Shown here in pieces: positions 36,151 through 52,322 of a stretch of 64,000 nt of DNA (the first letter of the stretch is position 1; each line of letters opens with the position of its first letter). Source of the DNA: Banduia mediterranea (GTDB lineage Bacteria; Pseudomonadota; Gammaproteobacteria; Nevskiales; Nevskiaceae); the NCBI RefSeq assembly GCF_031846245.1, contig NZ_JAVRIC010000003.1, positions 62,001 to 126,000 on the forward strand, read 5' to 3'. The position numbers were made by a program, and so were the translations under genes. Below the pieces are notes generated by a model. It ran no database searches, had not been told where the DNA came from, and saw nothing but the letters and a program-made list of their open reading frames with translations.

Positions 36151-36915
36151 GTGGGTGAGGTCATGGAACCAATCAAATCGTCAAGTGGAGGCAACGTGGC
36201 ATTCGAACGCAGAGTTGAAGCAGGCCCTTATGAACAGGGGGTCAACACCGATTGGGCAATCGATCGAGCACGCGGGCGCCGAGCTGAGTCCGTCAACCAA
36301 ACGGTGCCGAAGAAGTCAGTCTATGCAAGATCAAGCAAGCGCGGCTTCGATGTCCTGTTCGCGCTTGCCTTTATGCTGCTGATCGGGTGCTGGCTGCTGC
36401 CCCTGATCGGGCTGCTGATCAAGCTCGATTCGCGGGGAACCGTATTCTTTATACAGCGCCGCGTCGGGGAAGGGGGCGGGGTGTTCCGATGCATCAAGTT
36501 TCGGACCATGGTTCACGACCCCCAAGCCGCGTTTGTCCAGGCCCGGAAAAATGACCCCCGCATCACGCGGGTCGGCGCCTTCCTTCGGAAGACAAACCTG
36601 GACGAGCTGCCGCAGTTCATCAATGTCCTGCGGGGTGACATGAGCGTTGTCGGCCCACGTCCGCACGTCCCGGAACTGGATGACGTTTTTGGCGCCGCCG
36701 TGCCCGGTTATACGGCGAGAACCGTCGTCCGCCCGGGCATTACAGGCTTGGCGCAGGTCTCCGGGTGCCGCGGGGAGACCAAAAGCATTCGCGAGATGAC
36801 GCACCGCATTCGCTTCGACCTGTTCTATGCGAAGAACATGAGTCTTCGTATGGACCTCAAGGTCATTGTGCTCACGGTACTCACCGTGCTACGCGGTGAC
36901 GAACGTGCCTATTGA
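36151..36915 (+). CDS. Polyprenyl-phosphate sugar phosphotransferase (priming transferase for EPS)
   Basis: 254 residues from a GTG (an in-frame ATG at 36163 is an alternative). After a variable ~50-residue N-terminus comes [19 protein letters not shown], the re-entrant membrane helix of monotopic phosphoglycosyl transferases, then [23 protein letters not shown], the catalytic stretch [21 protein letters not shown] (Asp-Glu dyad) and [13 protein letters not shown]. It transfers a sugar-1-phosphate to undecaprenyl phosphate and so starts the repeat unit. It heads the EPS locus. Confidence 0.92.
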
Positions 36916-37010
36916 GTCGCGCTTGGCTCCGTCGCAAGTCATCGCCATGCCGCCCACGTGCAAATGCCTGGCGGAATGGGCTTGTCCTTGCGCTGAGAGA
37001 CTGCAACAAT

Positions 37011-37025
37011 GTTCAACCGTTGAAC
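37011..37025. promoter_or_regulatory. 15-bp palindrome upstream of the MarR-type EPS regulator
   Basis: GTTCAAC-C-GTTGAAC, a perfect 7-bp inverted repeat with a 1-bp centre, 66 bp before the regulator start. Spacing and symmetry fit a winged-helix dimer operator. No second exact copy was seen in the window. Confidence 0.5.
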
Positions 37026-37091: not shown

Positions 37092-37478
37092 ATGGCTCAA
37101 ATGGACGCCCAAGAGGTTCGCTATCGTTTGCTGGAGCTGATCGAACAGCAACCGCAACTCACGCAGCGGCAACTGGCCGAAGAACTCGGCGTCAGTGTCG
37201 GCAAGATCAATTATTGTCTGCACGCGCTAATGGAAAAAGGTTATGTCAAGCTCGACAACTTTCGTCGCAACCCCAACAAGCGGGTGTATTCCTACCTGCT
37301 GACGCCGGGCGGCCTTGAAGCCAAGGCGCAGGCGACTCTGTTCTTCCTTCAGCGAAAAGTGGCGGAGTACGAAAAATTGCGCCTTGAGATTCTGCGCTTG
37401 AGCGCAGATGTGGAAGCCTATCGTGCGGCTGGCGAGAACGGTGCGGCATCGTCTCGGGCGGCCAGGAGAAAACGCTGA
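37092..37478 (+). CDS. MarR-family EPS-associated transcriptional regulator
   Basis: 128 residues. The winged helix YRLLELIEQQPQLTQRQLAEELGVSVGKINYCLHALMEKGYVKLDNFRRNPNKRVYSYLLTPGG (in part) matches the MarR-like group found at the head of exopolysaccharide loci. A coiled-coil-like C-terminus (KVAEYEKLRLEILRLSADVEAYR) follows. Its last base overlaps the start of the RfaH-like gene, so the two regulators are made together. It presumably controls the locus, possibly through the palindrome at 37011-37025. Confidence 0.88.
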   Translation: MAQMDAQEVRYRLLELIEQQPQLTQRQLAEELGVSVGKINYCLHALMEKGYVKLDNFRRNPNKRVYSYLLTPGGLEAKAQATLFFLQRKVAEYEKLRLEILRLSADVEAYRAAGENGAASSRAARRKR

Positions 37479-37972
37479 TGCGCCGTTGGTACGTCGTGAT
37501 GACCAAGCCCCGGCAGGAGCAGATCGCACTCGCCCAGCTCACGCGGCAGGGCTATGAGAGCTATCTACCCATCGTCAGTGAGCGTCGGCGCGAGCAAGGC
37601 AAATACGTTAACAAGCGCGTTCCCCTGTTCCCCCGCTACCTGTTCGTGAATCTGGATACGGCTGTGGACAACACCGCTCCGATCCGGTCCACCGTCGGCT
37701 GCTGCGGTCTGGTTCGCTTCGGCCTGCGATTGGCGTATTTGCCGAGCGGTGTTCTGGAATGGATTCAGGCGCGCTGCCGGGAAGGTGAATCGCGTCGCCG
37801 CCAAGCAAGCTGGATGCCGGGCCGGCGATTGGATGTATTGGATGGACCTTTCGCCGGTTTGGATGCCGTGTTCGCCGCCGCCAGTAGCCATGATCGGGTC
37901 ATTGTTTTGTTGAAGTTACTTGGTGCGTCGCGCCCGGTGGAACTGCCGCAAGAGCACCTGCGGGCCGTGTGA
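37478..37972 (+). CDS. rfaH: RfaH/NusG-like transcription antiterminator
   Basis: 164 residues. The NGN domain WYVVMTKPRQEQIALAQLTRQGYESYLP matches RfaH (WYLLYCKRGQ-type start), followed by RRVPLFPRYLFVNLD and the flexible linker, then a C-terminal domain with PGRRLDVLDGPFAGLDAVFA (KOW-like). RfaH-type paralogues ride with RNA polymerase after loading at ops DNA, and suppress Rho and pausing in long polysaccharide operons. A perfect ops site lies 79 bp downstream of this gene, just before the EPS operon. Gene name by family resemblance. Confidence 0.88.
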   Translation: MRRWYVVMTKPRQEQIALAQLTRQGYESYLPIVSERRREQGKYVNKRVPLFPRYLFVNLDTAVDNTAPIRSTVGCCGLVRFGLRLAYLPSGVLEWIQARCREGESRRRQASWMPGRRLDVLDGPFAGLDAVFAAASSHDRVIVLLKLLGASRPVELPQEHLRAV

Positions 37973-38050
37973 TCAACGGCGGCGGAGTAACGCTGCTGGC
38001 ATAATAGTCGGTGTAACTCATTGTAAATTGGCGGCTTATTGGTTCGCCCT

Positions 38051-38062
38051 GGCGGTAGCGTG
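38051..38062 (+). promoter_or_regulatory. ops element (RfaH recruitment site)
   Basis: GGCGGTAGCGTG, identical to the 12-base operon polarity suppressor consensus known from E. coli capsule, LPS and hly operons. It lies between the RfaH-like gene and gmd, on the strand of the EPS operon. Confidence 0.85.
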
Positions 38063-38088
38063 TCTGAATGAAACTGGCTTTTCGCTCC

Positions 38089-38122
38089 CCAAGTGCTACA
38101 AGAAGCGGCTAGCGCCACTTGG
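38089..38122 (+). repeat. Hairpin in the EPS operon leader
   Basis: CCAAGTG ... CACTTGG inverted repeat (7 bp perfect, loop 20 nt) 26 bp after the ops element. There is no T-tract. It could be a pause- or Rho-related leader structure that antitermination would need to pass. Confidence 0.4.
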
Positions 38123-38144
38123 CAGCGTTGGTGCGCATGATTCG

Positions 38145-38465
38145 GGTCCATGACGTTTCAGGTGGAACAATCGTGCCCTCATCGCGTGCAGTTACCGTTG
38201 ATGTGCTGGACACCCTTCTCAGTGTGTTGCGTCGATCATGGTGAGGACGAATGCTCCGTGGTCAAGGCTTGTCGGGCTAACTGCTTGCCCGACAAGCCTT
38301 TTCCGAGCATTTCACGCTGCCGCCGAGCGTCAAGGTCAAGCCCTTCGGGCGGCCTGCGGCCGACCTTGACGCTCAACAGCAGCTCGAGAAACTGGGCCTT
38401 GTCTTCCACCCGAAACGACATAGAGCCAGATTACAGGCCGATTCCACTCGAAACGGCATAGATCC
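38145..38465. mobile_element. MITE-like structured repeat, copy A
   Basis: Left end GGTCCATGACGTTTCAGGTG (38145 on) is the inverted partner of two successive right ends, one ending at 38427 (CCGAAACGACATAGAGCC) and one at 38465 (TCGAAACGGCATAGATCC). The interior holds a 13-bp stem GAGCGTCAAGGTC/GACCTTGACGCTC (38325-38374) enclosing two small hairpins, 30 bp of which are identical to copy B (49551-49824). No flanking duplication was found. It sits between ops and gmd. Confidence 0.65.
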
Positions 38466-38552: not shown

Positions 38553-39674
38553 ATGACTAAACGTGCCCTTATCACCGGCATCACTGGGCAGGACGGCTCC
38601 TACTTGGCCGAGTTTTTGTTGGACAAAGGCTACGAGGTGCATGGAATCAAGCGCCGAGCGTCATCGTTCAATACTCAGCGTGTAGACCATATCTACCAAG
38701 ATCCCCACGAGAGCGGCGCGCGCTTTCACCTGCACTATGGCGACCTGACCGATACCAGTAACGTGACGCGCATTGTGGCCGAGGTCCAGCCGGATGAAGT
38801 CTATAACCTTGGTGCGCAAAGCCATGTGGCTGTTAGCTTCGAGGCTCCGGAATACACGGCAGACGTTGATGCCATGGGAACTTTGCGCCTGCTGGAAGCG
38901 ATCCGCTTCCTTAAGCTTGGCGACAAGACCCGCTTCTACCAAGCCAGCACTTCTGAACTCTACGGTTTGGTGCAGGAGATTCCGCAAAAGGAAGCCACCC
39001 CGTTCTACCCCCGCAGCCCCTACGGTGTAGCCAAGCTCTACGCGTACTGGATCACAGTTAACTACCGCGAAAGCTACGATATGTATGCGTGCAACGGTAT
39101 TCTATTCAACCACGAAAGTCCGCGCCGCGGTGAGACATTTGTAACCCGCAAAATTACCCGTGGTTTGGCCAACATCGCGCAGGGACTGGACAAGTGCCTA
39201 TACATGGGCAACCTGGACGCGCTGAGAGACTGGGGCCACGCCAAGGACTACGTCCGCATGCAGTGGATGATGCTGCAGCAGGACCGCCCACAGGACTATG
39301 TGATAGCAACCGGGGTGCAGTACAGCGTGCGCCAATTCATCGATATGGCAGCAAAGGAATTGGGCATCACCTTGGCTTTCGAAGGCGAGGGCGTCGAGGA
39401 AAAGGCCGTGGTACGGTCGGTTGAGGGCGGCAACGCGCCGGCGGTGAGGCCGGGAGACGTGATCGTGGCTGTGGATCCGCGTTACTTCCGTCCAGCTGAA
39501 GTGGAAACTCTGCTGGGTGATCCGGCCAAGGCCAAGGCCAATCTAGGTTGGGTACCTCAAATCACCCTGCAGGAAATGGTGATCGAGATGGTGGCCGCGG
39601 ACCTGGATAGTGCGCGCCAGCACGCACTGCTGAAGCGCCATGGCTACGATGTGGCTGTAAGTCAAGAGAACTAA
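38553..39674 (+). CDS. gmd: GDP-mannose 4,6-dehydratase
   Basis: 373 residues. Short-chain dehydrogenase fold with [22 protein letters not shown] (GxxGxxG), the Gmd-specific [19 protein letters not shown], catalytic TSELYG and [12 protein letters not shown] (Tyr-x-x-x-Lys), and [19 protein letters not shown]. It converts GDP-D-mannose to GDP-4-keto-6-deoxymannose using bound NADP, the first step to GDP-L-fucose. The partner fcl is 10 kb downstream, separated by the variable block. First gene after ops. Confidence 0.97.
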
Positions 39675-39688
39675 TGGAAGATTCAAGT

Positions 39689-40381
39689 ATGCAGAAGAAT
39701 CTCGCCATTATCCCCGCGCGCGGCGGCTCCAAAGGCATCCCACGCAAGAACGTCCGCGACATCGGCGGCAAACCGCTGATTGCGTGGAGTATCGAGCAGG
39801 CGTTGGCTGCCGAATCAGTTGATCGTGTGTTGGTTTCCACAGATGACGACGAGATAGCCGAGGTGGCTTTGCAGTATGGCGCCGAAGTCCCTTTTCGACG
39901 TCCTGCGGCTCTTGCCAATGACACCGCAGCCACCGAGCCCAGTCTGATCCATGCGCTTGAATGGCTGAAAAAAAGCGAAAACTATCGTCCCGACAATGTA
40001 GTCCTGCTGCAGGCGACTTCACCAGTTCGCTATAGCGGAGCCATTGATCGGGCCATGCGGCAGTTTCTTCATGAAGGTGCCGACAGCTTGCTCTCGGTTT
40101 GCGAGTTCTGGCATTTCCTTTGGCAGGGGCGACCTGCGCCGGTCGCTCTATACGACTACAAGCGTCGGCCGCGCCGGCAAGACATTCGCGCTGAGGACAT
40201 CAAACTGAAAGAGAATGGGTCTATCTACATCACCCGCACCGACGTATTGGTGAAGGAAAAGAATCGCCTGAGTGGGAAGATTGCAGCCTTCGTCATGAGC
40301 GACGAGGAAAGCTACGAAATTGACTCGCTTGTGGATTGGGCGGTCGTCGAAACGCTACTGAAGCACACTGCAGGAAAATGA
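39689..40381 (+). CDS. CMP-nonulosonic acid (acylneuraminate) cytidylyltransferase
   Basis: 230 residues. The NeuA/LegF-type N-terminus [32 protein letters not shown] carries the CTP-binding loop; [19 protein letters not shown] and [11 protein letters not shown] follow. Start at 39689 chosen because a GGAAG site lies 8 bp upstream; an ATG 5 codons earlier overlaps the gmd stop. It activates a sialic, legionaminic or pseudaminic-type sugar to CMP form. The following gene makes the nonulosonate. A C-terminal DUF/phosphatase extension is absent. Confidence 0.9.
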
Positions 40382-40382
40382 C

Positions 40383-42629
40383 ATGTTGATCAGCAAGAAA
40401 ATTTCCGAGTTCCTGGTTTTTGAAACTGAGTCAGTTTTTCGAGCCTTGGAGAAGATCAACAATAATAAGAAGCGAGTCGTTTTCGTGGTCAATGAAGGCG
40501 GCACTTTGACAGGCTCATTCTCTGATGGCGATTTCCGCCGCTGGCTTACATCGTCGCCGGACTTTGATCTGCATCGCGAAGTGGGTTCTATCGCTCATGA
40601 TGCCGTTACGTCATGCAAGGTTGATGCGCCGCGCACCGAGATCGACGCCGCTTTCAGTCAAGGCATCGAGCTGATTCCGCTGGTAGACCACTACCAGCGA
40701 CTTGTTGCAATTGCATTTCAGAACGAGCGCGGCCTCGCCATTGGCAAGCATCTTATTTCTGATACTTCACCGGCCTATGTGATTGCCGAGATCGGCAACA
40801 ATCACAACGGTGATATAAAGCTGGCCAAACATTTGGTTGATCTGGCGCTAGAGGCCGGTGCTGACTGTGTCAAATTCCAGATGCGCGACGTGGAGTCGCT
40901 ATACAAGGGGGGGCGCGACAAGGACAAGAGCGCCGACTTGGGTGCTCAATACACCATGGATCTGCTGAGCAGGTTTCAGCTGAGCAACGTGGAGTTGATA
41001 GAGGTCTTTGATTACTGCAAAGAGTTGGGGCTGACGCCCCTATGTACCCCCTGGGACATCAAAAGCCTGCAAGTATTGGAAGCGTACGGAATGGAGGCCT
41101 ACAAAGTGGCTTCTGCAGACTTCACTAATCACCAGCTGCTTGGTGCTTTGGCTGCTACAGGCAAGCCATTGATTTGCAGCACCGGCATGAGCACAGAGGC
41201 GGAAATCCGTCGTTCCGTTGCTTTTCTGAAAAGCAAGGGCGCGAATTTTGTCATTCTGCACTGTAACTCGACGTACCCTACGCCGTTCAAGGACGTCAAC
41301 TTGGTGTACCTAAAGCGCCTTCAGGAGATAACGGGTGGCCTAGTCGGTTACTCGGGGCACGAACGGGGAATTTCTATCGCTGTAGCCGCAGTCACTCTAG
41401 GTGCCCGAGTGATCGAAAAGCACTTCACCATCGACAAGAGCATGGAGGGCAACGACCACAAGGTGTCGTTATTGCCGGATGAATTCCGCGATATGGTCCG
41501 GAAGATTCGCGAAGTCGAAGAATCCATGGGCAATGGTGGCGAGCGCATCATCACCCAGGGGGAGCTAATCAACCGTGAGTCCTTGGCAAAGAGCTTGGTG
41601 GCGAACTGCGAGATGAGCAAGGGGCAGGTGATTGAACCGGGCATGGTAGAAGTGAAAAGTCCTGGGCAAGGTCTCCAACCCATGTACTTGGAACAATTGC
41701 TCGGTAAGCGTGCCAAGCGAAACATGCAGGTTGGTGACTATTTCTACGAGTCGGACCTCAAGGATGAGTCGGTAGAGGCACGCAATTACCGCTTCAACCG
41801 CCCGTTCGGAATCCCGGTTCGCTACCATGACTACGACACGCTAGTGCCTAAGTCGAATTTCGATTTCGTCGAGTTTCATCTCAGTTATCAGGATATGGAA
41901 CTGGAGCCGGCAGATTTCTTCGATGGCCCACAGGACATCGGTTTTGCAGTGCACAGCCCGGAGCTGTTCGCCGGTGATCACATCATGGATCTGGCCAGCG
42001 AGAATGAAGCCTATCGCCGGCACTCCATCGCCGAACTTCAAAGAGTTTGTGACATCACCCGCAAGCTCAAGCAGTTTTTTCCAAAAACTGAAAAGCCGGT
42101 CATCGTCATCAATGCTGGCGGGTTCAGTACGTCGTCTTTCCTGCCCAGAGACGCGCGCCCAACTATGTATAAGCGCATCGCGGAGTCACTGGGGCAACTG
42201 AATCAGTCCGGCGTGGAAGTGATTATCCAGACGATGCCCCCTTTCCCCTGGCATTTTGGTGGCCAGAGCTATCACAACTTGTTTGTGGACCCGAACGAGA
42301 TTCGGGAATTCTGCAGTAGTTATGGTTATCGCATCTGCTACGACATTTCACACTCGATGATGGCCTGTAATTACTATAAGTGGAAGCTAACCGATTTCAC
42401 TAACGCAGTCGGTCTATATATCGCACATATGCATGTGGTAGATGCTTTGGGTGTAGACGGCGAAGGAGTGCAGATCGGTAAAGGTGATGTGGACTTTACT
42501 GAGCTTTCACTCGATCTCAATCAATGCGCGCCAAGCACACAGTTCATTCCGGAAGTTTGGCAAGGGCACAAAAATCACGGAGAAGGGTTTTGGTGTGCGT
42601 TGGACTTTCTAGAGAGCTACTTCAAGTAA
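40383..42629 (+). CDS. Multidomain nonulosonate synthase: CBS - NeuB - SAF - TIM-barrel
   Basis: 748 residues, far longer than a typical ~350-residue NeuB. Residues ~1-118 resemble a CBS pair (RVVFVVNEGGTLTGSFSDGDFRRWL; IELIPLVDHYQRLVAIA). About 130-380 is the NeuB barrel (YVIAEIGNNHNGDIKLAKHL, CVKFQMRD, VASADFTNHQLL, ICSTGMST, GYSGHERG, EKHFTIDKSMEGNDH) that condenses PEP with an N-acyl hexosamine. About 395-458 is the antifreeze-like SAF domain. About 460-748 is a second barrel resembling xylose-isomerase/AP-endonuclease-2-type proteins (VEFHLSYQDM, YDISHSMMACNYY, HMHVVDALGVDGEGVQIGKG). No NeuC-type epimerase is nearby; the extra barrel may help provide or modify the substrate (inference). 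Confidence 0.88.
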   Translation: MLISKKISEFLVFETESVFRALEKINNNKKRVVFVVNEGGTLTGSFSDGDFRRWLTSSPDFDLHREVGSIAHDAVTSCKVDAPRTEIDAAFSQGIELIPLVDHYQRLVAIAFQNERGLAIGKHLISDTSPAYVIAEIGNNHNGDIKLAKHLVDLALEAGADCVKFQMRDVESLYKGGRDKDKSADLGAQYTMDLLSRFQLSNVELIEVFDYCKELGLTPLCTPWDIKSLQVLEAYGMEAYKVASADFTNHQLLGALAATGKPLICSTGMSTEAEIRRSVAFLKSKGANFVILHCNSTYPTPFKDVNLVYLKRLQEITGGLVGYSGHERGISIAVAAVTLGARVIEKHFTIDKSMEGNDHKVSLLPDEFRDMVRKIREVEESMGNGGERIITQGELINRESLAKSLVANCEMSKGQVIEPGMVEVKSPGQGLQPMYLEQLLGKRAKRNMQVGDYFYESDLKDESVEARNYRFNRPFGIPVRYHDYDTLVPKSNFDFVEFHLSYQDMELEPADFFDGPQDIGFAVHSPELFAGDHIMDLASENEAYRRHSIAELQRVCDITRKLKQFFPKTEKPVIVINAGGFSTSSFLPRDARPTMYKRIAESLGQLNQSGVEVIIQTMPPFPWHFGGQSYHNLFVDPNEIREFCSSYGYRICYDISHSMMACNYYKWKLTDFTNAVGLYIAHMHVVDALGVDGEGVQIGKGDVDFTELSLDLNQCAPSTQFIPEVWQGHKNHGEGFWCALDFLESYFK

Positions 42630-42731
42630 CGGTCCCACGGCGGAACCCCATGGTTTTCGATTGATGTTGCCCTCAAGTATGTTTGACTTGCTTCACTGGG
42701 GCACCATAGCTATTTTCAATGGTAAAGCCGC

Positions 42732-43913
42732 GTGATAAAAAAATTCCTCTCCGGCTCTGGGATATTCGCGCTATCCGTACTGGTATTCAGCTTTGTCAGG
42801 CAGATCGTCGTCTTTCCAGCCGTTTCTAGATATAGTGACGATCTTTTTATCGGCCTTACTTTCATGATTTTTACGTTCGAGGCTATCGCCTATGGGTTTA
42901 CGGGCGCTATTCCAGACTACTATGTTCGGCGCGTTCATGGCGGTGCAGTCGACGCTGAACTGATACATAAGCTGGGTAGATTTAGTCTGATCAGCTTCGT
43001 CAGCTTGGCAGCATTTTTGATGCTCGGAATGGGGACGAGCGTATCGCTGCTATTGTCCGTTTACCTTTACTTGTTCGCCCTGAATGCGCTGAAGATTAAA
43101 ATCGTATTCAATAAAATGCGATTCGCCGAAAATTTTGTATACATGGCGTTCCGTAGTGCGCCTTACCTGCTGGTTCTCTGGGGCATCCAATCGAATGTGG
43201 TATGGGCGCGGGGAGTGGAGATCGAGTGCATGGCGGGGCTGCTGCTGGCATTCGAATGCATATATTGGATCAGGTTGAACGCCATCACCCATGAAGACAT
43301 GGTCATAGCTGCTCGTGCGGAAAGTGGAAATCAGCGGTCAGAGGTTCAATTTTTTTCCATTCTTCCATTTGTTGCCAGCGCTCTGCTAATGGGATTCATC
43401 CAACGCGGTGACCTGACCCTTATGAAAGTGCTAGACACCGATTACTACGTGGGCTATGCCAAGCTGATCTTGACGGTGAATTTCTTCTGCGCGCCGTTAT
43501 CTTTGATGGTGTCGAGTCCGCTACTCAGCTTCATGAGCCGATACGGGTTGTCGCTAGGATCGAAGGAAATACGCCACATATTGATTTGGGTTGCCGCGCT
43601 TATCGCGGTTACAGGATTAGGTTCGGTCGTTGTATTTAGATGGATGCACAGCATCCTGTACCATGAAGTATATGGAGGTCAGATGTGGTTGGTATTTTAC
43701 TTTACTACGACTGCGTTGGCATACTCTGTAGTTAGAACTTTGGTAGTGAAATATGCCAACATCCGATTTGCGCTGCACGCTAGTTCACTAGTTTTGGTAG
43801 CATCGGTAGGGATGGCTTTCTTAGCCCCCGTTGCATGGGTGCCAATTGTATTTTACGCTATCCGGTTTCTTTTTTTGTGTGCCATTCTGATAATTCCTAC
43901 AAGGCATAAATAG
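42732..43913 (+). CDS. Wzx-like polysaccharide flippase
   Basis: 393 residues with about ten to twelve hydrophobic segments and very few soluble stretches. It starts KKFLSGSGIFALSVLVFSFVRQIVVFPAVSRY, resembling the first helices of Wzx/MATE-type exporters (ordinary O-unit flippases start similarly), and has the mid-protein LPFVASALLMGFIQRGDLTLMKVL. Position in the locus, next to a Wzy-like gene, supports flipping of the lipid-linked repeat unit. The gene is AT-richer than its neighbours, suggesting horizontal transfer. Confidence 0.75.
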   Translation: MIKKFLSGSGIFALSVLVFSFVRQIVVFPAVSRYSDDLFIGLTFMIFTFEAIAYGFTGAIPDYYVRRVHGGAVDAELIHKLGRFSLISFVSLAAFLMLGMGTSVSLLLSVYLYLFALNALKIKIVFNKMRFAENFVYMAFRSAPYLLVLWGIQSNVVWARGVEIECMAGLLLAFECIYWIRLNAITHEDMVIAARAESGNQRSEVQFFSILPFVASALLMGFIQRGDLTLMKVLDTDYYVGYAKLILTVNFFCAPLSLMVSSPLLSFMSRYGLSLGSKEIRHILIWVAALIAVTGLGSVVVFRWMHSILYHEVYGGQMWLVFYFTTTALAYSVVRTLVVKYANIRFALHASSLVLVASVGMAFLAPVAWVPIVFYAIRFLFLCAILIIPTRHK

Positions 43914-43977
43914 TTGTGCGCCGCTATTTTTGCGAAAGGGCTTCAACCATTGCGGTTCAAATTAAACTGCCAGCGGA

Positions 43978-45306
43978 TTGCTTTCATTGAACGTTAACTA
44001 CCTGCATCTTATGTGCGTGCTGGTATTCATGGCTTATTCATTTAGAATGGGACTAAAAACTGCCGTAGTTAACTTTATCTATATTGCTCCATTCTATTCC
44101 ATTTCGTTGATTGATTTGCCGTGGAGCGCGTACATAAAGCCCCCAGAAGTATATGCTGCGGGATTGGCGGTACTGTTCATTGCGAAGAGGGGGTCCCTTA
44201 AATCGGCCCCGCTTATTTTTGCGCTTTTATTCTTTATCCCGTTCCTGATCTCGTTGGTTCTTAACGTGTACCACTTCAATCCGATTGACGCTTGGGAAAT
44301 CGACGCGGAAAAAAGAGAGGTTTTCTATGAAAAGTTAACAACTAGGCGCGAGATAACAAGTACAAATTTCACGCAGCTTCTCTATATTATTGCTGCACTG
44401 GTTGTTTTTGTTGTATCGGCCAGCGTGGATATGGCATCAAAGCGAGAGCATATAGGGGCGGCACTTGGGAAATCCGCCGCACTCATCTCAATAATCGGCC
44501 TATTCCAAATCGTCGCTTATTACTACAATTTCTATGGCGTATATTTGTGGATGTTTTATAATTCCGCCGCATCCAATTTTAGTGAACTGGCGTGGAACGA
44601 AATTGGAGGAATAAAGAGAATAAATTCGACGTTCTCGGAACCCTCAATTTTCGGGCTATATATTGGATTATATATGCTGGTTGCTTTGATATTGGGAGGC
44701 TGGAGGGTTGACTATCTGCTGAAAAGGCCCAGCTTCTGGGTCGCATTGTTTGCTGGGATGATATCTCTATCCGGAACATTTTATTTTTGCCTATTCACAT
44801 TGGCGGGATTCTATCTTGCTCATAAGTATAGGGGAATGACTGGCATCGCATTGTGCCTGTGCTGCATATTAGTAGTGGTTGCTGCAGCGAGTTGGTTGCC
44901 CTCACTTTTTTTATTCGAGCCCTCCACTTTTTTTGATCAAAAGAAAGCATCTTTTATTGAAAGATATTATTTTGGACTCGAATTGCCGCTAAAAAATATT
45001 TCAATAAATCCATTTTGGGGAGCCGCGCTCGGCTCCGACAGGCCCACAACCCTTATATTCAACCTGTTGGTTTCTGTTGGATTTGTTGGATTTTTTATTG
45101 CAATCGTTGCGGTGTCGTTCATATGGCGGCGCGGCGTAAAGGATATAATATATTTCTGGATGTTATGTGGAATGCTTTCTCCGGATCTAAATTTCATTTT
45201 TATATGGCTATACATTGGGATCGTTTACTCCGCATTAAGTGGGGCGGGAATAGGAGTAGAAAGCGTGCGTAATGTGAGCGCCCGAATTAAAACGAGTGCG
45301 CGATGA
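43978..45306 (+). CDS. Wzy-like O-antigen/EPS polymerase
   Basis: 442 residues from a TTG (other starts possible, for instance the ATG at 44011). About eleven transmembrane helices and one large hydrophilic loop (about 100-125 and 195-215). No strong sequence motif, as usual for Wzy; INSTFSEPSIFGLYIGLYMLV resembles the conserved Arg/Glu-Pro-Ser periplasmic segment of polymerases (FxEPS). It is the most AT-rich stretch of the window, a typical trait of horizontally acquired polymerase genes. Confidence 0.75.
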   Translation: MLSLNVNYLHLMCVLVFMAYSFRMGLKTAVVNFIYIAPFYSISLIDLPWSAYIKPPEVYAAGLAVLFIAKRGSLKSAPLIFALLFFIPFLISLVLNVYHFNPIDAWEIDAEKREVFYEKLTTRREITSTNFTQLLYIIAALVVFVVSASVDMASKREHIGAALGKSAALISIIGLFQIVAYYYNFYGVYLWMFYNSAASNFSELAWNEIGGIKRINSTFSEPSIFGLYIGLYMLVALILGGWRVDYLLKRPSFWVALFAGMISLSGTFYFCLFTLAGFYLAHKYRGMTGIALCLCCILVVVAAASWLPSLFLFEPSTFFDQKKASFIERYYFGLELPLKNISINPFWGAALGSDRPTTLIFNLLVSVGFVGFFIAIVAVSFIWRRGVKDIIYFWMLCGMLSPDLNFIFIWLYIGIVYSALSGAGIGVESVRNVSARIKTSAR

Positions 45307-45350
45307 CAATGGCTGGCTGAGGTCACTTTATCGTATAATGGGCTCTGTAC

Positions 45351-46547
45351 GTGTCGAATCGTTTAAATGCTGAATTGATTTTTAAAAATGAGCTTTTAGT
45401 TAAGCTGAATCAAATTTGTCGTCTCGATGGAGGCCTCCATAAAGGCCGGTTTCCATCAGCCGTCGTATACACTAAATCTCCGGGCTTCTTCATTAACGTA
45501 TTTTATTCATTTTTGTTGCGAGTGGCTTCCGCGTTTTCGTTTTTGATTCTTTTTTGTTTTAGAGTGCCGTCGGGCTCTAACCCAGAGTCGGCATTCATTT
45601 ATGTGGACAGGCGTCGTTTGAAATTTTCGGAGGGCGATTGCCCGGCTTACAATATTGGTCTCTATAAATATTTTTCCGTGTTTCGTGAGGATCATGTTTA
45701 TCAGCTTCTGTCTTTGCGTGAAGTGCTGCGTTGCTTAGTAGACGCCTTTAGCCGGCGGCGGTTGATGGCGGAGGATATTATGCGTATGCGCGGTATCACT
45801 CAGTTTTCAGGCAAGCAATTGCTAGCTCTTTCCGGATTCAGTTATCTGCGCTGCCTCGATCTATTGCTTGCAAAAACGGCCTTATCTAAATTTCAGCGGA
45901 TTAAGTGTGCCGGACATTTTGACGTCTACACGGCACTGATGTCCCAGCTTCGCCAAGATGGCTCGATAAAGAATTTTTCCGGAATTCAACATGGTCTGTT
46001 TGAAAATTTTTGGTTTGGTGAGCCGGCGCCCCTTTTCTTTGATGAGTACAAGTTACTTTTTCCGGAGTCAAGACGCTATTTCGAACAGCGCCTTAGCGCC
46101 AATCCTAATTGCGTCTTTCACGTCCGAGAGAAAATGCCAATATTTGAACACTGTGCCGCTATAGGAATCACGGTTGGAGTCGCTTTACAAACCGATGATG
46201 AAGCATCCGACGCGCGGCTGTTGGATGCGCTCCAGGTCATTGCGCGGGGGCGCTTCTCCTTGTTGGCTTATGCACATCCGGCGGCGCCAGCCAAGGGATT
46301 AGCGAAGCTGCATGTTCGCTTCCCGGATATTCGGTTTGAGCGAAAGCTGCGTTGTTCCAACGTCGCCGTAGTGATTACCCGATACTCAACGTTGGCAATG
46401 GAGTACGTAGCGGCAGGTGTGCCCGCCATTTTTTGGGCGGCGCCGGACCGAGTTTGCGTGTCGTTTTCCGGTCACCCGCTCATTCACGAGATCACTGAGC
46501 TGGATATGTTGCCGGAGGTTCTGAATACCATTCTTCCGCCATCATGA
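45351..46547 (+). CDS. Probable glycosyltransferase of unrecognised family
   Basis: 398 residues from a GTG. After about 90 residues containing a hydrophobic segment (FINVFYSFLLRVASAFSFLILFCF), the protein is soluble. GIQHGLFENFWFGEPAP resembles the nucleotide- or acceptor-contacting region of polysialyltransferase/CDP-glycerol-type GT-B enzymes, and VVITRYSTLAMEYVAAGVPAIFW resembles the C-terminal donor-binding signature (STxxxExxxxGxPxI) of GT-B transferases. By position it may add the CMP-activated nonulosonate. Family assignment is not secure. Confidence 0.5.
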   Translation: MSNRLNAELIFKNELLVKLNQICRLDGGLHKGRFPSAVVYTKSPGFFINVFYSFLLRVASAFSFLILFCFRVPSGSNPESAFIYVDRRRLKFSEGDCPAYNIGLYKYFSVFREDHVYQLLSLREVLRCLVDAFSRRRLMAEDIMRMRGITQFSGKQLLALSGFSYLRCLDLLLAKTALSKFQRIKCAGHFDVYTALMSQLRQDGSIKNFSGIQHGLFENFWFGEPAPLFFDEYKLLFPESRRYFEQRLSANPNCVFHVREKMPIFEHCAAIGITVGVALQTDDEASDARLLDALQVIARGRFSLLAYAHPAAPAKGLAKLHVRFPDIRFERKLRCSNVAVVITRYSTLAMEYVAAGVPAIFWAAPDRVCVSFSGHPLIHEITELDMLPEVLNTILPPS

Positions 46548-46754
46548 AACATCGCAGCGCCTTCATGAACCCCCGACCGAGTTCGACAACTCGCGGCGAA
46601 AATCGGCCATTTTAGGTTTCCGGGCAACGAAGAATCAATCGGTTAGCGCCAATTTTCGAAAAATACTTGTAGTGGCACGTTTGTAAGGAAATGAATTTTT
46701 GTTGACGTGTCATTGGCCAGTGATAAAGTGGCGGCATTCAAACGAAAAGCTCGC
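46548..46754. other. Intergenic stretch before the IS remnants
   Basis: No frame with recognisable content; AT-rich segments (for example CGAAAAATACTTG) and the left flank of the IS481-like remnant. I see no promoter or terminator I can defend. Confidence 0.5.
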
Positions 46755-46980
46755 CTTTTCTGCGGAAATGGGCCGCTGTGGTGGAGCGTTCTGCAGCGCG
46801 ACATCGTAAGATCAATCACTTATGGCGTTAACCGTCGAACTGGGGAGGAGGTGGTGGCGGTCGAACTGCGCCGGACGTTGCTGCTGCCGCTGGACGATCT
46901 GCTCGCGGTGGTGCGGAATTCATGTGTCCGCAGGTGTCGCGTTCGAGCCTAGACCGCTGCCTGCGTCGGCATCCCCCCGG
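46755..46980 (+). pseudogene. Degenerate N-terminal fragment of an IS481-family transposase
   Basis: Pieces of one transposase appear in three frames: FLRKW...VERSA..RHRK (46755 on), then VAVELRRTLLLPLDDLLAVVR (to about 46915), then EFMCPQVSRSSLDRCLRRH (to 46975). Together they match the HTH-to-DDE linker of IS481 proteins (LLLPLDDLLAVxREFxxPxVSRSGLDRCLRRHG). The DDE catalytic part is missing, replaced by the IS630 element from about 47016. Confidence 0.65.
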
Positions 46981-47015
46981 AACATGTCAACCTATTTTGG
47001 ACGATCAGTTGGAAA

Positions 47016-48123
47016 TTGCTCATAGGTCAGAAATAAAGGGGACGATTGGTTGAACTTTCCCGTGTCGTCGCGCTCCAAATGGTCATGAAAAGAGATGGTT
47101 GCAGCGTATCGCGCGAAGCATTGGAAGAAATGCGCCTGATGGCGCTGGATCGCCTGTCTGAAGGCGAGAGTCCTCGGGCGGTATCGGCCTCATTCGGGCT
47201 GCATCGAAGTTGGGCCTACAAGATTCGGGAAAAGGCACGAGGACGAGGCAAGGGCAAGCGAGCCTTGCGTTCGACGAAGGGCAGCGGCCGGCCGCGCAAA
47301 CTGGATGCGGCGCAGGAGCGCCAAGTGTTTCGTTGGGTCAACGGTAAGAACCCAATGCAGTACGGTTTCGACTTCGGACTGTGGACCCGCCAGATCGTCC
47401 GAGAATTGATTGAGCAGCGTTTTGGTGTGGCGCTGAGTCTGGCCTCGGTCGGTGCCCTGCTGGCGCGGGTAGGCCTGACGCCGCAAAAGCCATTGCAGCA
47501 AGCCTACCAACGAGACCCGCAGGCGGTGGCGCGTTGGCAGCGGGAGACTTACCCGGCAATCGCGCGCCAGGCCAAGCGGGAAAAGGCGGACATCTACTTC
47601 TGGGACGAATCCGGGTTTCGCGCCGATGCCGTGCAAGGCAAGACTTGGGGAGCCAAGGGTCAGACACCGGTGGTGTCGGTTCCTGGCCAGCGCCAGAGCA
47701 TCAGCGCGGCCTCGGCTGTTAGTTCCAAAGGCGCCTTTTGGTTTGTCACCTACACGGGCGGTTTGAACGGATCGCTGTTTATCGAGTTGCTGCGCAAGAT
47801 GATGCGCGGCCGCCGCAAGCCCGTGCATTTGATCGTGGACGGACTGCCTGCACACAAGACCAAGGCCGTGCGCGATCACGTCGATGAACTGGAAGGCAAG
47901 CTGACCCTCCATTTCTTGCCCGGTTATGCCCCGGACCTGAACCCGGACGAGTTGGTCTGGAGCTATGCCAAGCGGACAGGCAATGCACGCCGCCCTCTGC
48001 AAGCCGGTGAAAAGCTGGCCGAGCGCATCCACGCGCAGTTGGCCGAGATCGCACGGCGACCCGCGTTGGTGCGCTCATTCTTCAGGCACCCAAGTGTCGC
48101 CTATATTTCTGACTTATGAGTAA
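47016..48123 (+). mobile_element. IS630-family insertion sequence
   Basis: Imperfect terminal inverted repeats of about 26 bp: left TGCTCATAGGTCAGAAATAA (47017 on), right (reverse complement) TACTCATAAGTCAGAAATAT (ending about 48122), with mismatches at few positions. It encloses a single intact transposase gene. IS630 elements duplicate a TA dinucleotide; the precise TA pair could not be fixed by eye. The right end lies over the first codons of the next gene. Confidence 0.8.
47079..48119 (+). CDS. IS630-family transposase
   Basis: About 346 residues (a TTG at 47046 would add 11). N-terminal HTH (SEGESPRAVSASFGLHRSWAYKIREKARG), then a second helix-turn region, then the DDE domain: first Asp in YFWDESGFRADA, second in HLIVDGLPAHKTKAV, Glu in LNPDELVWSYAKR. 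It appears full length and potentially active. The stop codon lies inside the right inverted repeat. Confidence 0.92.
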   Translation: MVMKRDGCSVSREALEEMRLMALDRLSEGESPRAVSASFGLHRSWAYKIREKARGRGKGKRALRSTKGSGRPRKLDAAQERQVFRWVNGKNPMQYGFDFGLWTRQIVRELIEQRFGVALSLASVGALLARVGLTPQKPLQQAYQRDPQAVARWQRETYPAIARQAKREKADIYFWDESGFRADAVQGKTWGAKGQTPVVSVPGQRQSISAASAVSSKGAFWFVTYTGGLNGSLFIELLRKMMRGRRKPVHLIVDGLPAHKTKAVRDHVDELEGKLTLHFLPGYAPDLNPDELVWSYAKRTGNARRPLQAGEKLAERIHAQLAEIARRPALVRSFFRHPSVAYISDL

Positions 48124-49477
48124 TCGGACTCGCCGGGCATTGATACTGACCGCTTTAGGGGTGCCTCTGCTGGGACGAGTTTGGGGGCGAGTCAACGCAA
48201 CGGAGATGAACGACGACGGACTCACACCGCAATTGAGCCCGACTGCCGGTATCGGCGACGTTGCGGTTCGGCGCGCCGCGCTCAGCGTGAAAATGGCCCC
48301 TTTCTATGCAAGAGGTGACGGCATCGCCGACGATCGTGCTGCGGTCGATGCCGCGCTGGAGCGGGCTTCTGCGATTCGGGGAAAGCTATATTTCCCGCCG
48401 GGCGAGTACGTGATCAGGGCCAATGGGCCTGGGGCGGTGTTGCGAGGGCGCAGCAATGTTCAGGTCGAATTTGCTCAAGGCGCTGTGCTCAAACTGGAAA
48501 ACCCCGCTCGATACCCATTGACATGCTTTTTCGAGCACAGCTTTGTGGAAAATGCGACATACAAAGGCCTTACCTTGAACGGCGGTGGTGAGGTCGGACC
48601 GAACGGCTTCGGGGCAAATAATTCGAAGGGCATACAATGCGACGGTGCACACATATATGGCTTTCGACGAGATCCTCGCACGGGCGGTGGGCGTGGCATT
48701 ACGTTTCAGTTTAATTGTAAAAATATTGAGGTTAATAGCCCAAAAATCACTAATTGTACTACCGGAATTGACTTTCATGGGCGCCATAGCGCCCGCTTGG
48801 ATGGAATTATCGTCGTAAATCCTACGATTTCAGAATGTGAGGAAGCAATTAGTTTTTATGATCTTTTTGATGGGGATATCAACCTAAACAGCGCCGAAAG
48901 TGCCCAGGTAATCGTAAATGGTGGGACGGCATTCAATTGTGGAAAGTCCACCAGTGCACTTGCCCCAGGAACGAACGGAGAGGGGGGGGGGGTCGTTGTT
49001 TCCGAGCGAGGGCATTCGTTCTCGGTTCGTAACTTCTCGGTTGTGAACGAACCTAGCTATGGGGAAATCGGTGCGGTAATCCGTGGTTCCTTCTCTAATT
49101 CTGACGTTGATGTAAGTTACCGGGGGGAATGTATGGCGCTAGTTATGTTTTCTCCTGCGTTGAATTTGGCCCCTGTCAAGCCGAGTGCGGCAGCTGTTTC
49201 CAGTGGCAACAAAATTTCGATTATATGTGCAGGGATGTGCGACTACGTGGTCTACAGTGACAATATGCGAGGCGCCAATTTGGCATTTCAAAATAGAATA
49301 ACAGTGAGCTGCCATGTGCCTCGTATATCGCTCATGAATGATATTGCTGGAAGGAGCGCCGAAAATTTTCTTGAAGTTATTTCCCTGGAGAACTCCAAGG
49401 CTGTGCGTGGATATTGGGCGGAATTATATGAGAAAAATTCGACTTTCCCTGACGCGTCTTGGGATCCGGCTCATTGA
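48116..49477 (+). CDS. Pectate-lyase-superfamily (right-handed beta-helix) secreted protein, possible EPS lyase or hydrolase
   Basis: 453 residues. A twin-Arg-like leader (NRTRRALILTALGVPLLG) precedes ARGDGIADDRAAVDAALERAS...GKLYFPPGEYVI, the N-terminal motif of Pectate_lyase_3/GH28-like beta-helix proteins and phage tailspikes, and rungs rich in Asn/Gly (KNIEVNSPKITNCTTGIDFHG). The likely role is depolymerising or trimming the polymer. The ATG and next codons lie in the right inverted repeat of the IS630 element. An 11-G run at 48982-48992 is read through in frame (EGGGVVV). Confidence 0.75.
   Translation: MSNRTRRALILTALGVPLLGRVWGRVNATEMNDDGLTPQLSPTAGIGDVAVRRAALSVKMAPFYARGDGIADDRAAVDAALERASAIRGKLYFPPGEYVIRANGPGAVLRGRSNVQVEFAQGAVLKLENPARYPLTCFFEHSFVENATYKGLTLNGGGEVGPNGFGANNSKGIQCDGAHIYGFRRDPRTGGGRGITFQFNCKNIEVNSPKITNCTTGIDFHGRHSARLDGIIVVNPTISECEEAISFYDLFDGDINLNSAESAQVIVNGGTAFNCGKSTSALAPGTNGEGGGVVVSERGHSFSVRNFSVVNEPSYGEIGAVIRGSFSNSDVDVSYRGECMALVMFSPALNLAPVKPSAAAVSSGNKISIICAGMCDYVVYSDNMRGANLAFQNRITVSCHVPRISLMNDIAGRSAENFLEVISLENSKAVRGYWAELYEKNSTFPDASWDPAH
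48982..48992 (+). repeat. 11-bp poly-G tract within the beta-helix protein gene
   Basis: Eleven consecutive G in coding sequence, the longest homopolymer seen in the window. Gain or loss of one G would shift the frame after about residue 292 and truncate the protein, so it is a candidate slipped-strand phase-variation site. Confidence 0.75.
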
Positions 49478-49550
49478 TTTTTCGGTCGTTGCTCGGTAGG
49501 GATCCAAAACTAGGATCGTGACGGTCTGCATGCTTAGGCTCAAATTATGG

Positions 49551-49824
49551 GGTCTATGTCGTTTCGAGTGGAAGGATGAGGTCCAAGCGGAGTCGGTTTG
49601 CCACCGTGAGGGCGTTTGCTCTCGCACAGCCGGCAAACGGCTTGTCACCGAGGCTTGCCGGCCAAAACTGCCTGTCCGACAAGCCTTTCCGTAGGATTGC
49701 TTCGCCGTCGGCGGGCATCAAGGTCGAGCCCTTCGGGCGGCCTGCGGCCGACCTTGACACCCGCCGACGGCTCAATCGCAGCAACAACTGCGCCTCATCC
49801 TCCCACTCGAAACGTCATGGAACC
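49551..49824. mobile_element. MITE-like structured repeat, copy B
   Basis: 274 bp with ~31-bp imperfect terminal inverted repeats (49551-49581 and 49793-49824; shared CGTTTCGAGTGG and GGATGAGG blocks). It is flanked on both sides by the 9-bp direct repeat AAATTATGG (49542-49550 and 49825-49833), a likely target-site duplication. The interior has a ~21-bp stem CCGTCGGCGGG...CCCGCCGACGG (49705-49770) enclosing two small hairpins, a three-way-junction shape shared with copy A. Its short frames have no recognisable product. Confidence 0.75.
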
Positions 49825-49923
49825 AAATTATGGCGATTTATGTGTTTAAATGGCGCGCTGTGTAACTTTCGTTCATGGCTTTGTTAGAAGCCACCAATTT
49901 ATTGGCGCCGTTGCATTTGCAAG

Positions 49924-49952
49924 TTGACACCATTGGAGTATGGATGTTTATC
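49924..49952 (+). promoter_or_regulatory. Possible promoter of fcl
   Basis: Consensus -35 TTGACA (49924-49929), 17-bp spacer, weak -10 TTTATC (49947-49952), 49 bp before the gene. It would let fcl and the WcaI-like gene be expressed apart from the upstream operon. The -10 match is poor. Confidence 0.35.
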
Positions 49953-50000
49953 GTGGAGAGGGATTTGCGTTGGAACTCATAATGATGGAATTCGAAAGGA

Positions 50001-50942
50001 ATGAATAAAAATTCGACGATTTACGTTGCAGGCCACGGCGGCCTTGCCGGTAGTGCGGTCGTGCGTGCCCTGCGATGCCGGGGTTATGACAACATAGTAT
50101 GGCGGACGCACACCCAACTGGATTTGACTGACCAGGCTGCGGTTGAGCGTTTTTTTTCTGATGAGAAGCCGGGCTACGTGTTTCTCGCCGCAGCCAAGGT
50201 CGGAGGCATTCATGCCAACAACGCCTACCCAGCTGAGTTCATTCGCGATAATCTCGCAATTCAGACCAATGTTATCCATTCGGCATGGAAGAACGGTGTG
50301 AGTAAATTGTTGTTCCTTGGATCTTCGTGCATCTATCCCAAGCTCGCGCCGCAGCCGATGTCCGAGCACTGCCTGTTGACCGGCCCCTTGGAGCCGACGA
50401 ACGAGTGGTACGCCGTCGCCAAGATTGCGGGTATCAAGATGTGCCAAGCTTATCGTCGCCAATACGGTTTTGATGCGATATCGTTAATGCCTACGAATCT
50501 TTACGGTCCTGGCGATAACTTTAATCTAGAAAATTCTCATGTAATGCCGGCTTTGATCCGGAAATTTCATGAGGCAAAGTTGGGCGGTGCAAAGGAAGTA
50601 ATTATGTGGGGCACCGGTACTCCGCGACGCGAGTTTTTGCATGTCGACGATTTGGGAGCTGCTGCTGTTTTTCTTATGGAAAAATACACGGGCGAAGAGT
50701 TTATCAACGTGGGGGTGGGTAGCGATGTGGCCATCCGGGATCTTGCGGAAGCGATAAAGGTTGCGGTGGGTTACAGTGGCAAGATTACTCAGGATCTCAG
50801 CAAGCCGGATGGAACACCCCGGAAACTGATGGATGTGAGTCGCTTGGCGGCGCTGGGTTGGAAGCCAAGCATAACTTTGGAAGCAGGTATACGGATGACG
50901 TATCAATGGTTCCTTGAGAACGTGGGCCAGATGCGTGACTAG
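50001..50942 (+). CDS. fcl: GDP-L-fucose synthase
   Basis: 313 residues. Rossmann start [20 protein letters not shown], then [37 protein letters not shown], catalytic Tyr-x-x-x-Lys in [21 protein letters not shown], and [11 protein letters not shown], all GDP-fucose-synthase landmarks. The epimerase-reductase converts GDP-4-keto-6-deoxymannose to GDP-L-fucose with NADPH. In many genomes it follows gmd directly; here the variable block lies between them. Confidence 0.96.
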
Positions 50943-51068
50943 GATGACAGTGATTTCGGGCTTTTTCGCAACTGGGAGTCGGGGAGGCGGCTGGCACAGT
51001 ACGTTCGTTCCCGAAGTTTATCGCTTTCCGGTGCGCGTGGCGCACGCTAGTATAGTTCCCTGCTCCTA

Positions 51069-52322
51069 ATGCGCATTCTCGTTTATGGGCTTAATTTCTT
51101 TCCCGAGCTGACAGGCGTCGGAAAATACACGGGCGAGATGGTTCAGGCTTTAGTGTCTGCTGGGCACGACGTTCGGGTGGTTACAGCGCCACCGTACTAT
51201 CCAGAGTGGGTGGTTCCGCTGCCCCATACATCGCGCAGGTATTATATGGGCAACGAACTGGGTTGCGCTGTGTACCGTTGTCCGCTGTGGGTGCCGGTGA
51301 ATCCGGGGGGGGGCAAACGTTTGGTACACTTAGCGAGCTTTGCTGTATCCAGCTTGCCAATTGCTTTAAGGCAGGTGTTCTGGAAACCGGATGTCGTCTG
51401 GACGGTCGAGCCATCCTTGCTGACCGCGCCCATAGCCGCTGTCGTGGCCAAGCTTAGTGGAGCCGCTTCGTGGATTCACATTCAAGACTTCGAAATTGAC
51501 GCCGCGTTCGGGCTAGGGCTACTGCGTGGCGCCACGCTTCAGCGTATCGTATTGGTAATGGAGAGGATGTTGCTACGTCGATTCGACCGCGTCTCGACAA
51601 TTTCTAACCGAATGTTGGAGCGTGCGGCGAAGAAGGGTGTGGCGCCATCCAAGCTGACGCTTTTCCCAAATTGGGTTGACACCGCGGCGGTTCGCCCACT
51701 TGAAGGATTCAGCCCGTATCGCAGAGAACTCGGGATCCCCGCTGAGAGCGTCGTGGCACTTTATTCGGGAAACATGGGGGAGAAGCAGGGCTTAGAGATT
51801 CTTGGAGATACTGCTCGCCGGTTGTCCGGTCGTTCGGATATTAGGTTTGTATTCTGCGGTGGCGGATCCGGCAGGTCCGCGCTGGAGCGTCAGTGTGCTG
51901 GCTTAAGCAATGTCCAGTTCTTGCCGCTGCAGTCTATGGACCGTTTCAACGATCTGCTTGGTCTTGCTGACATCCATTTGTTGCCCCAGAGAGCAGACGC
52001 AGCAGATCTGGTTATGCCATCCAAGCTTACTGGCATGCTCGCCAGCGGTAGGGCCGTGTTGGCTACGGCTGTGGAATCAACGGAGCTTGCTAAGGCGGTT
52101 TCTGGGAGAGGCGTGGTCGTGCCTCCGGGCGACGTTGAGCGCTTCTCGGCGGCGCTAACGGAGCTGGCGTCGGACTCTGTTCGTAGAGCCGAACTCGGTC
52201 GTTGCGCGCGGCAGTACGCAGAAGACGCATTAGGCCGAGAGGCGGTGCTTGGGCGGTTTGTGGAAGAACTTGCAACGTTGGCTATAGATGGCAGGCAGCG
52301 GCGGCGAGTCACAGGGCCCTAA
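51069..52322 (+). CDS. WcaI-like GT4 glycosyltransferase
   Basis: 417 residues. RILVYGLNFFPELTGVGKYTGEM and HDVRVVTAPPYYPEW are signatures of the colanic acid WcaI group. The C-terminal Rossmann half has VVALYSGNMGEKQGLEIL (GT-B donor domain start), FVFCGGGSGRSALE, and LLPQRADAADLVMPSKLTGMLASGRAVLA (Glu/Asp-containing donor site, with the usual Glu of EX7E partly altered). It probably adds fucose or another sugar to the repeat unit. A 9-G run sits at 51305-51313. Confidence 0.88.
   Translation: MRILVYGLNFFPELTGVGKYTGEMVQALVSAGHDVRVVTAPPYYPEWVVPLPHTSRRYYMGNELGCAVYRCPLWVPVNPGGGKRLVHLASFAVSSLPIALRQVFWKPDVVWTVEPSLLTAPIAAVVAKLSGAASWIHIQDFEIDAAFGLGLLRGATLQRIVLVMERMLLRRFDRVSTISNRMLERAAKKGVAPSKLTLFPNWVDTAAVRPLEGFSPYRRELGIPAESVVALYSGNMGEKQGLEILGDTARRLSGRSDIRFVFCGGGSGRSALERQCAGLSNVQFLPLQSMDRFNDLLGLADIHLLPQRADAADLVMPSKLTGMLASGRAVLATAVESTELAKAVSGRGVVVPPGDVERFSAALTELASDSVRRAELGRCARQYAEDALGREAVLGRFVEELATLAIDGRQRRRVTGP
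51305..51313 (+). repeat. 9-bp poly-G tract in the WcaI-like gene
   Basis: Nine consecutive G encode PGGGK near residue 80. The frame is intact as sequenced; slippage would truncate the enzyme early. Confidence 0.6.

Follow-up and report, generated by a model that had tools for sequence, protein, structure and literature searches.

Within a 64,000-nt stretch of the Banduia mediterranea genome (hereafter the window) we identified a regulatory module that combines a known kind of regulator, a NusG paralogue resembling RfaH, with a known signal, the ops element. Their arrangement is conserved in relatives and includes two further conserved elements, a palindrome upstream of the regulator genes and an RNA hairpin just before ops; we found neither of these, nor ops beside TIGR04176 genes, described in the main texts of openly licensed papers. 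We consider it likely that the parts together make up a compact switch, working in two steps, for a single polysaccharide locus, in which an autorepressed promoter would yield MarR_EPS and RfaH, and the latter would then be loaded at the sole ops.

Layout of the module and the sugar genes behind it

The marR-type and rfaH-like open reading frames lie on the forward strand and have one base in common, within TGATG (Table 1). This overlap had been described in the initial annotation, together with an RfaH-like gene and a perfect ops, both of which are confirmed by matches to PF02357 and, under its cut-off, to TIGR01955 and by the identity of GGCGGTAGCGTG to the consensus at all 12 bases. The distance from the rfaH-like stop to ops, previously put at 79 bp, measures 78 nt. 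Sugar genes do follow ops as proposed, beginning with gmd at 38553 and continuing on the same strand; among them the family search found a GT4-type glycosyltransferase gene (51069-52322) within the putative target region. Overall, the original observation is confirmed and its interpretation is partly supported. Upstream of the module, the family search also found a gene for a sugar transferase of 254 aa (36151-36915), which corresponds to the C-terminal part only of the WcaJ type.

Table 1. Coordinates of the module, its putative target region and longer regulators from related loci.
Feature	Position	Strand	Basis
Promoter-like TTGTCC-17-AACAAT, abutting the palindrome	36982-37010	+	8/12 matches; suggested by position in relatives
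Palindrome GTTCAACCGTTGAAC, predicted MarR_EPS operator	37011-37025		Exact in 100/125 related upstream regions
MarR_EPS winged-helix regulator, 128 aa	37092-37478	+	TIGR04176, 140.5 bits (cut-off 88); structure model
RfaH-like NusG paralogue, 164 aa	37478-37972	+	TIGR01955 (under cut-off), PF02357; shares 1 bp with the marR stop
RNA hairpin just before ops (GGCGG..CGCC)	38030-38048	+	2 nt from ops; -7.5 kcal/mol, shuffle mean -3.9
ops element GGCGGTAGCGTG	38051-38062	+	12/12; sole exact copy in genome
7-bp hairpin of the initial annotation (CCAAGTG 38089, CACTTGG 38116)	38089-38122	+	26 nt after ops; not conserved
MITE-like repeat, 284 bp, between ops and gmd	38144-38427		Four other near-full genome copies, 99-100% identity
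gmd, GDP-mannose 4,6-dehydratase, first gene after ops	38553-39674	+	TIGR01472, 581 bits
Putative target region, further same-strand genes	39674-52322	+	Open reading frames, family matches; single-operon status putative
IS630-family transposase gene interrupting the putative target region	47046-48119 (with inverted ends 47015-48124)		Family search
Longer-class regulator examples	L152:6508-7116, L162:6501-7121, L131:6594-7208

The G+C content of the sugar genes (38553-52322) is 43-58%, against 62-64% in the flanks, which suggests acquisition; low G+C is common in acquired surface-sugar loci. A mobile repeat, missed previously, accounts for 284 of the 490 nt separating ops from gmd. A diverged relative of this repeat is present at the opposite end of the sugar block (49550-49824), and the copy on contig 14 is flanked on both sides by AAAATTCT. 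These insertions could mean that the module is decaying in the window, the repeat and the IS630 element having uncoupled it and gmd being served by another promoter. The repeat is recent, given its near identity to the four copies, the transposase gene sits inside the sugar block, and the window hairpin lacks the TGC..GCA base that is common at other loci. With the window ops, both regulator genes and the palindrome all intact, and with RfaH expected from general knowledge of the E. coli protein to carry polymerase across such insertions, we nevertheless regard decay as quite improbable.

Recurrence of ops behind rfaH and regulator genes

The initial annotation had proposed a genome scan for other ops copies. 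Among all 3,833,953 bases, the sole exact copy is the one beside rfaH, against four copies of the reversed pattern, and when up to one mismatch is allowed the counts are 52 for ops and 76 for the reversed control. An excess of ops by count was therefore rejected. No sign of further targets was seen among the one-mismatch sites of the whole genome and, judged from sequence, the RfaH-like factor seems to have one target. Because a single exact copy without excess over the reversed pattern proves nothing by its count, the comparison with relatives carries the case.

For this comparison, named genomes were scanned with an alignment of seven proteins, and the best 80 of 491 relatives were kept, giving 797 kb of loci. 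Within these best 80 loci, all 45 copies of exact ops lie on the rfaH strand and none on the opposite strand, and the reversed control occurs once. The gene orders (M, MarR_EPS; m, a longer TIGR04176-like regulator below the family cut-off; R, rfaH; o, ops) are R-m-o in 21 loci, M-R-o in 10, R-o-M and R-o in 4 each, R-M and R-m in 2 each, and m-R, M-R, o-M-R, o-R-o-M and m-R-o in one each, with R alone in 32. Exact ops is strongly associated with a nearby regulator gene, being present in 38 of the 44 loci that have one and in 4 of the 36 that do not (Fisher p 5.5e-12; p 5.8e-10 with 7 truncated loci removed). Among the 32 rfaH-alone loci, 7 have less than 1 kb of sequence after rfaH, and in two an exact ops lies further off, at 2.3 and 3.2 kb. 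Six loci have a regulator and no exact ops; in three of them a one-mismatch ops lies within 300 nt after the regulator.

Spacing is conserved along with order and strand. From the last regulator stop to ops there are 47-96 nt in all 10 M-R-o loci and 44-132 nt in 19 of the 21 R-m-o loci, the other two having 266 and 344 nt. Related genomes do not give independent loci. An RfaH tree was built from 79 of the 80 named loci (L120 was dropped) plus the window, whose protein is 36-56% identical to those of the 79 relatives. The window groups with [Pseudomonas] boreopolis and a Stenotrophomonas (100/95). Gene order changed at least 27 times along this tree and ops presence at least 17 times; for M-R-o, at least three changes on starred branches are required.

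A census that started from the regulator, and so independently of RfaH, gave a similar picture. A TIGR04176 search of 369 genomes of the class matched 77, 43 of them above the cut-off, and the regions around all listed matches were taken, leaving out the window's own gene, L222 and L223. Around the resulting 80 TIGR04176-type genes (78 loci), exact ops lies within 1.5 kb on the same strand in 36 cases and on the opposite strand in none (reversed control 1). It accompanies 24 of the 34 regulator genes with an adjacent rfaH and 12 of the 46 without (p 1e-4); near the remaining 10 of the 34, none was found within 1.5 kb. In a first class-wide look at 8 further two-gene loci, exact ops follows rfaH in L004, L027, L042 and L046 and is absent behind rfaH in L006, L011, L029 and L051; L011, L029 and L051 have no ops in the first 330 nt after the gene. 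Several census loci have ops ahead of the regulator gene. For example, in L172, L181, L225, L230 and L239 it lies 35-174 nt upstream of the regulator and no rfaH was seen within 3 kb; these sites are probably served by an RfaH encoded elsewhere.

Exact ops thus recurs in relatives at the same position and on the same strand behind rfaH and regulator genes. The genome count of one exact copy against four reversed would fit a chance match to ops in a GC-rich genome, an explanation already contradicted by the recurrence of strand and position (45:0 and 36:0, with a control of 1 in each) and by the probability of 2e-5 that one randomly placed copy would fall on the right strand within 150 nt after rfaH; we give it almost no weight. 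The idea of a local, self-contained, two-layer module is in turn well supported by the comparison, with same-strand ops after rfaH or regulator genes in dozens of loci.

An operator-like palindrome and a hairpin before ops

The first of the additional elements, GTTCA-N5-TGAAC, is exact upstream of 100 of 125 regulator genes, whereas 119 other arrangements of its letters average 0.008 in the same 125 upstream regions. The spacing is 5 only, bar one site with spacing 3. Allowing up to one mismatch, the palindrome precedes 58 of 68 MarR_EPS genes and 50 of 57 genes of the longer class. It has 3 sites in the window's own genome and 0 for the reversed control, the other two being near the 3' end of an oxidoreductase-like open reading frame and at the start of a Ser-rich one. 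With so few genome sites, the palindrome probably serves the MarR_EPS promoter alone.

Promoter-like boxes (at least 8/12 matches) end 0-11 nt before the palindrome in 38 of 48 longer-class cases (control 1), usually abutting it, and boxes before the palindrome were found at 15 of 52 MarR_EPS genes (control 0). A promoter scan of the window with a threshold of 9/12 found none, the boxes there matching at 8/12. The location of the palindrome over the likely transcription start suggests autorepression, and on sequence grounds it is probably the autorepression operator of MarR_EPS. The palindrome, conserved ahead of the regulator genes and flanked by promoter-like boxes, is in keeping with the earlier proposal that one protein of the pair tunes initiation.

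The regulator itself scores well above the TIGR04176 (MarR_EPS) cut-off, and its AlphaFold2 (AF2) model has a winged helix and one long helix. Foldseek gave no hit at E<=0.001 and no whole-chain match to the MarR dimer fold, its matches being mostly limited to about 50 winged-helix residues. The earlier label of MarR-type is therefore loose. Longer-class regulators (about 200 aa) have a TIGR04176-like winged helix scoring 65-67 bits, under the cut-off of 88, and a C-terminal half without a Pfam name; their genes have the same palindrome upstream, with an abutting TATAGT-like box. The module provides the TIGR04176 family, uncharacterised so far, with a DNA site and a role, both predicted.

The second additional element is an RNA hairpin that ends just before ops. 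The 30-nt segment directly ahead of ops has a mean folding energy of -10.0 kcal/mol over 47 sites, among them the E. coli K-12 rfb leader and the window, against -5.3 for shuffles (mean z -2.28, below -1 in 37 of the 47); the 30 nt preceding that segment, used as a control, have a mean z of -0.50. The alignment of hairpins comprised 44 of the 45 named sites (L162, at a contig end, was dropped) plus the window. The stem ends 0 nt before ops in 13 sites, 1 nt in 26 and 2 nt in 4, that is, in 43 of the 45 aligned sites, the window among them. This is presumably where pause hairpins lie relative to the RNA end at ops. The native arm pairs average -9.6 kcal/mol, and exchanging arms among loci weakened this to -5.8 (sd of means 0.36), which shows that the arms co-vary; like the energy test, this one used shuffles of single letters. 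A single-letter stem scan before ops gave a mean of 2.87 against 1.82 for shuffles. RNAalifold, run on the ungapped ops alignment, returned pairs only inside or just after ops and missed the upstream hairpin, as its loop lengths vary.

In the window the hairpin before ops is modest. Relatives also conserve letters outside ops, GCA ahead of it and CCTGAA behind it, of which the window has only the TCTGAA part. The initial annotation had pointed instead to a hairpin beyond ops. Its arms exist 26 nt after the element (z -1.3 in the window alone), but no conserved folding was found there (mean z -0.12 over 44 sites), and it was rejected as a conserved element; the conserved hairpin is the one before ops. 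A conserved stem-loop in JUMPstart was reported by Weinberg et al. (2010; PMC2864571). The corresponding Rfam model, RF01707, has no match in the window at E<=1 and none at the gathering score in 11 ops loci, while the E. coli leader scores 60 bits. The arrangement found here therefore looks like a JUMPstart-like variant.

The RfaH-like protein, the proposed switch and known systems

The window protein scores 134 bits against TIGR01955, under the equivalog cut-off of 144.5 for RfaH, and also falls below the cut-offs for UpxY (78.4 of 100 bits) and LoaP (43 of 125). Its closest solved relative by sequence is E. coli RfaH, and the top Foldseek match of its model is the E. coli RfaH:ops structure 5OND (E 9.9e-11). 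AF2 predicts the NGN domain fold with pLDDT 82-97 over residues 1-100. The C-terminal domain is modeled at low confidence as a mixture of strand and helix, residues 105-134 and 151-164 having pLDDT below 50. The whole genome has two PF02357 matches: the rfaH-like gene and, on contig 4, a second that is presumably NusG.

Zuber et al. (2018; PMC5995543) describe K10, H20, R23 and R73 as the RfaH side chains that read ops bases. The window protein has K, Q, R and V at these positions, so that K10 and R23 are kept, as are Q24, T72 and G74. All 80 aligned rows share R70 and S71, where E. coli has N and A; the invariance of R53 was discarded as evidence because this residue belongs to the seed pattern that picked the relatives. 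Among the autoinhibition contacts E48, I93, F130 and R138, the window has V48 and L93 and keeps F and R. Residue 48 is likewise V in L084 and L088; glutamate stands there in 7 of the 11 M-R-o proteins and in 18 of the 21 with R-m-o order. At the position of the NusG Rho-binding loop the window has L-L-G, E. coli RfaH L-I-N and NusG I-F-G.

Without E48, H20 and R73, the window RfaH may not be autoinhibited or ops-dependent. A protein that is constitutively active and taken up in cis, without ops, by the polymerase at work on its gene would leave the element as a pause site or a relic. Consistent with this, an E48A substitution is reported to make E. coli RfaH independent of ops, and cis-encoded homologues with a predicted NusG-like fold are reported to be active without ops in E. 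coli (2026 preprint, PMC13015549); the mixed, low-confidence C-terminal domain of the AF2 model points the same way. Set against these observations, the window protein retains K10, R23, Q24, T72 and G74; relatives with just 36-56% identity are still followed by an ops unchanged at all 12 bases, where an unused 12-mer should drift; and if ops had no use, its perfect copies immediately after the genes of these loci would be difficult to account for. We therefore consider an ops-independent protein unlikely.

The two-step switch that we favor would operate as follows. A promoter just upstream of the palindrome would produce a transcript with the MarR_EPS and RfaH genes at its head. MarR_EPS, bound to GTTCA-N5-TGAAC over the likely start site, would hold its own promoter down, and its release would allow both proteins to be made by coupled translation at TGATG. 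About 80 nt further on, polymerase would reach the hairpin and ops, pause there with the help of the hairpin, and take up RfaH. Once loaded, RfaH would exclude NusG and Rho, and polymerase and ribosome would be carried across the leader, mobile repeat included, and on through the sugar genes. Such a module may represent a small portable switch for long operons.

More tentatively, with the balance leaning somewhat against it, the window may belong to a widespread branch of RfaH that is cis-encoded yet ops-specific, combining hairpin-plus-ops loading on its own transcript, an R70-altered readout and initiation governed by a TIGR04176 autorepressor. In such a branch the pause would come 50-130 nt behind its own control genes, and the invariant R70 would replace R73 of E. 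coli. If so, sequence-specific loading need not accompany action in trans, and lineages like that of the window may not need the E48 lock.

The best-known comparison is E. coli RfaH with ops/JUMPstart (RF01707), which shares the 12-base ops, the NusG-type NGN fold and polysaccharide targets; the E. coli K-12 rfb leader also has a hairpin just before ops. In contrast to E. coli, the window gene sits behind an autorepressor-like gene and ahead of the one exact ops available to it, E48, H20 and R73 are replaced, and RF01707 matches the E. coli leader but neither the window nor any of the 11 ops loci compared. Another precedent is the RfaH cluster CL4, placed with an HTH regulator by Wang et al. 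(2020; PMC7593976), who describe others beside envelope genes; the account of CL4 compared here does not mention ops, a hairpin or an operator. UpxY of Bacteroides and LoaP are, like the window protein, NusG paralogues encoded with the polysaccharide or antibiotic operon that they serve (PMC7593976, PMC7819879). The window protein differs from them in its scores under both cut-offs and in having ops as a landmark.

How NusG paralogues, at first active on their own operon, came to read a DNA signal is presented as an open question of the field (PMC7593976, PMC7819879, PMC13015549). The cis-encoded monomorphic RfaH homologues of the 2026 preprint (PMC13015549) resemble the window in having an rfaH-like gene beside a long operon, and the window has also lost E48. 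These locally encoded, NusG-like homologues are argued there to work without ops, whereas a perfect ops follows the window gene. With dozens of loci in which a local RfaH precedes a perfect ops, whether a cis-encoded RfaH needs ops becomes directly testable.
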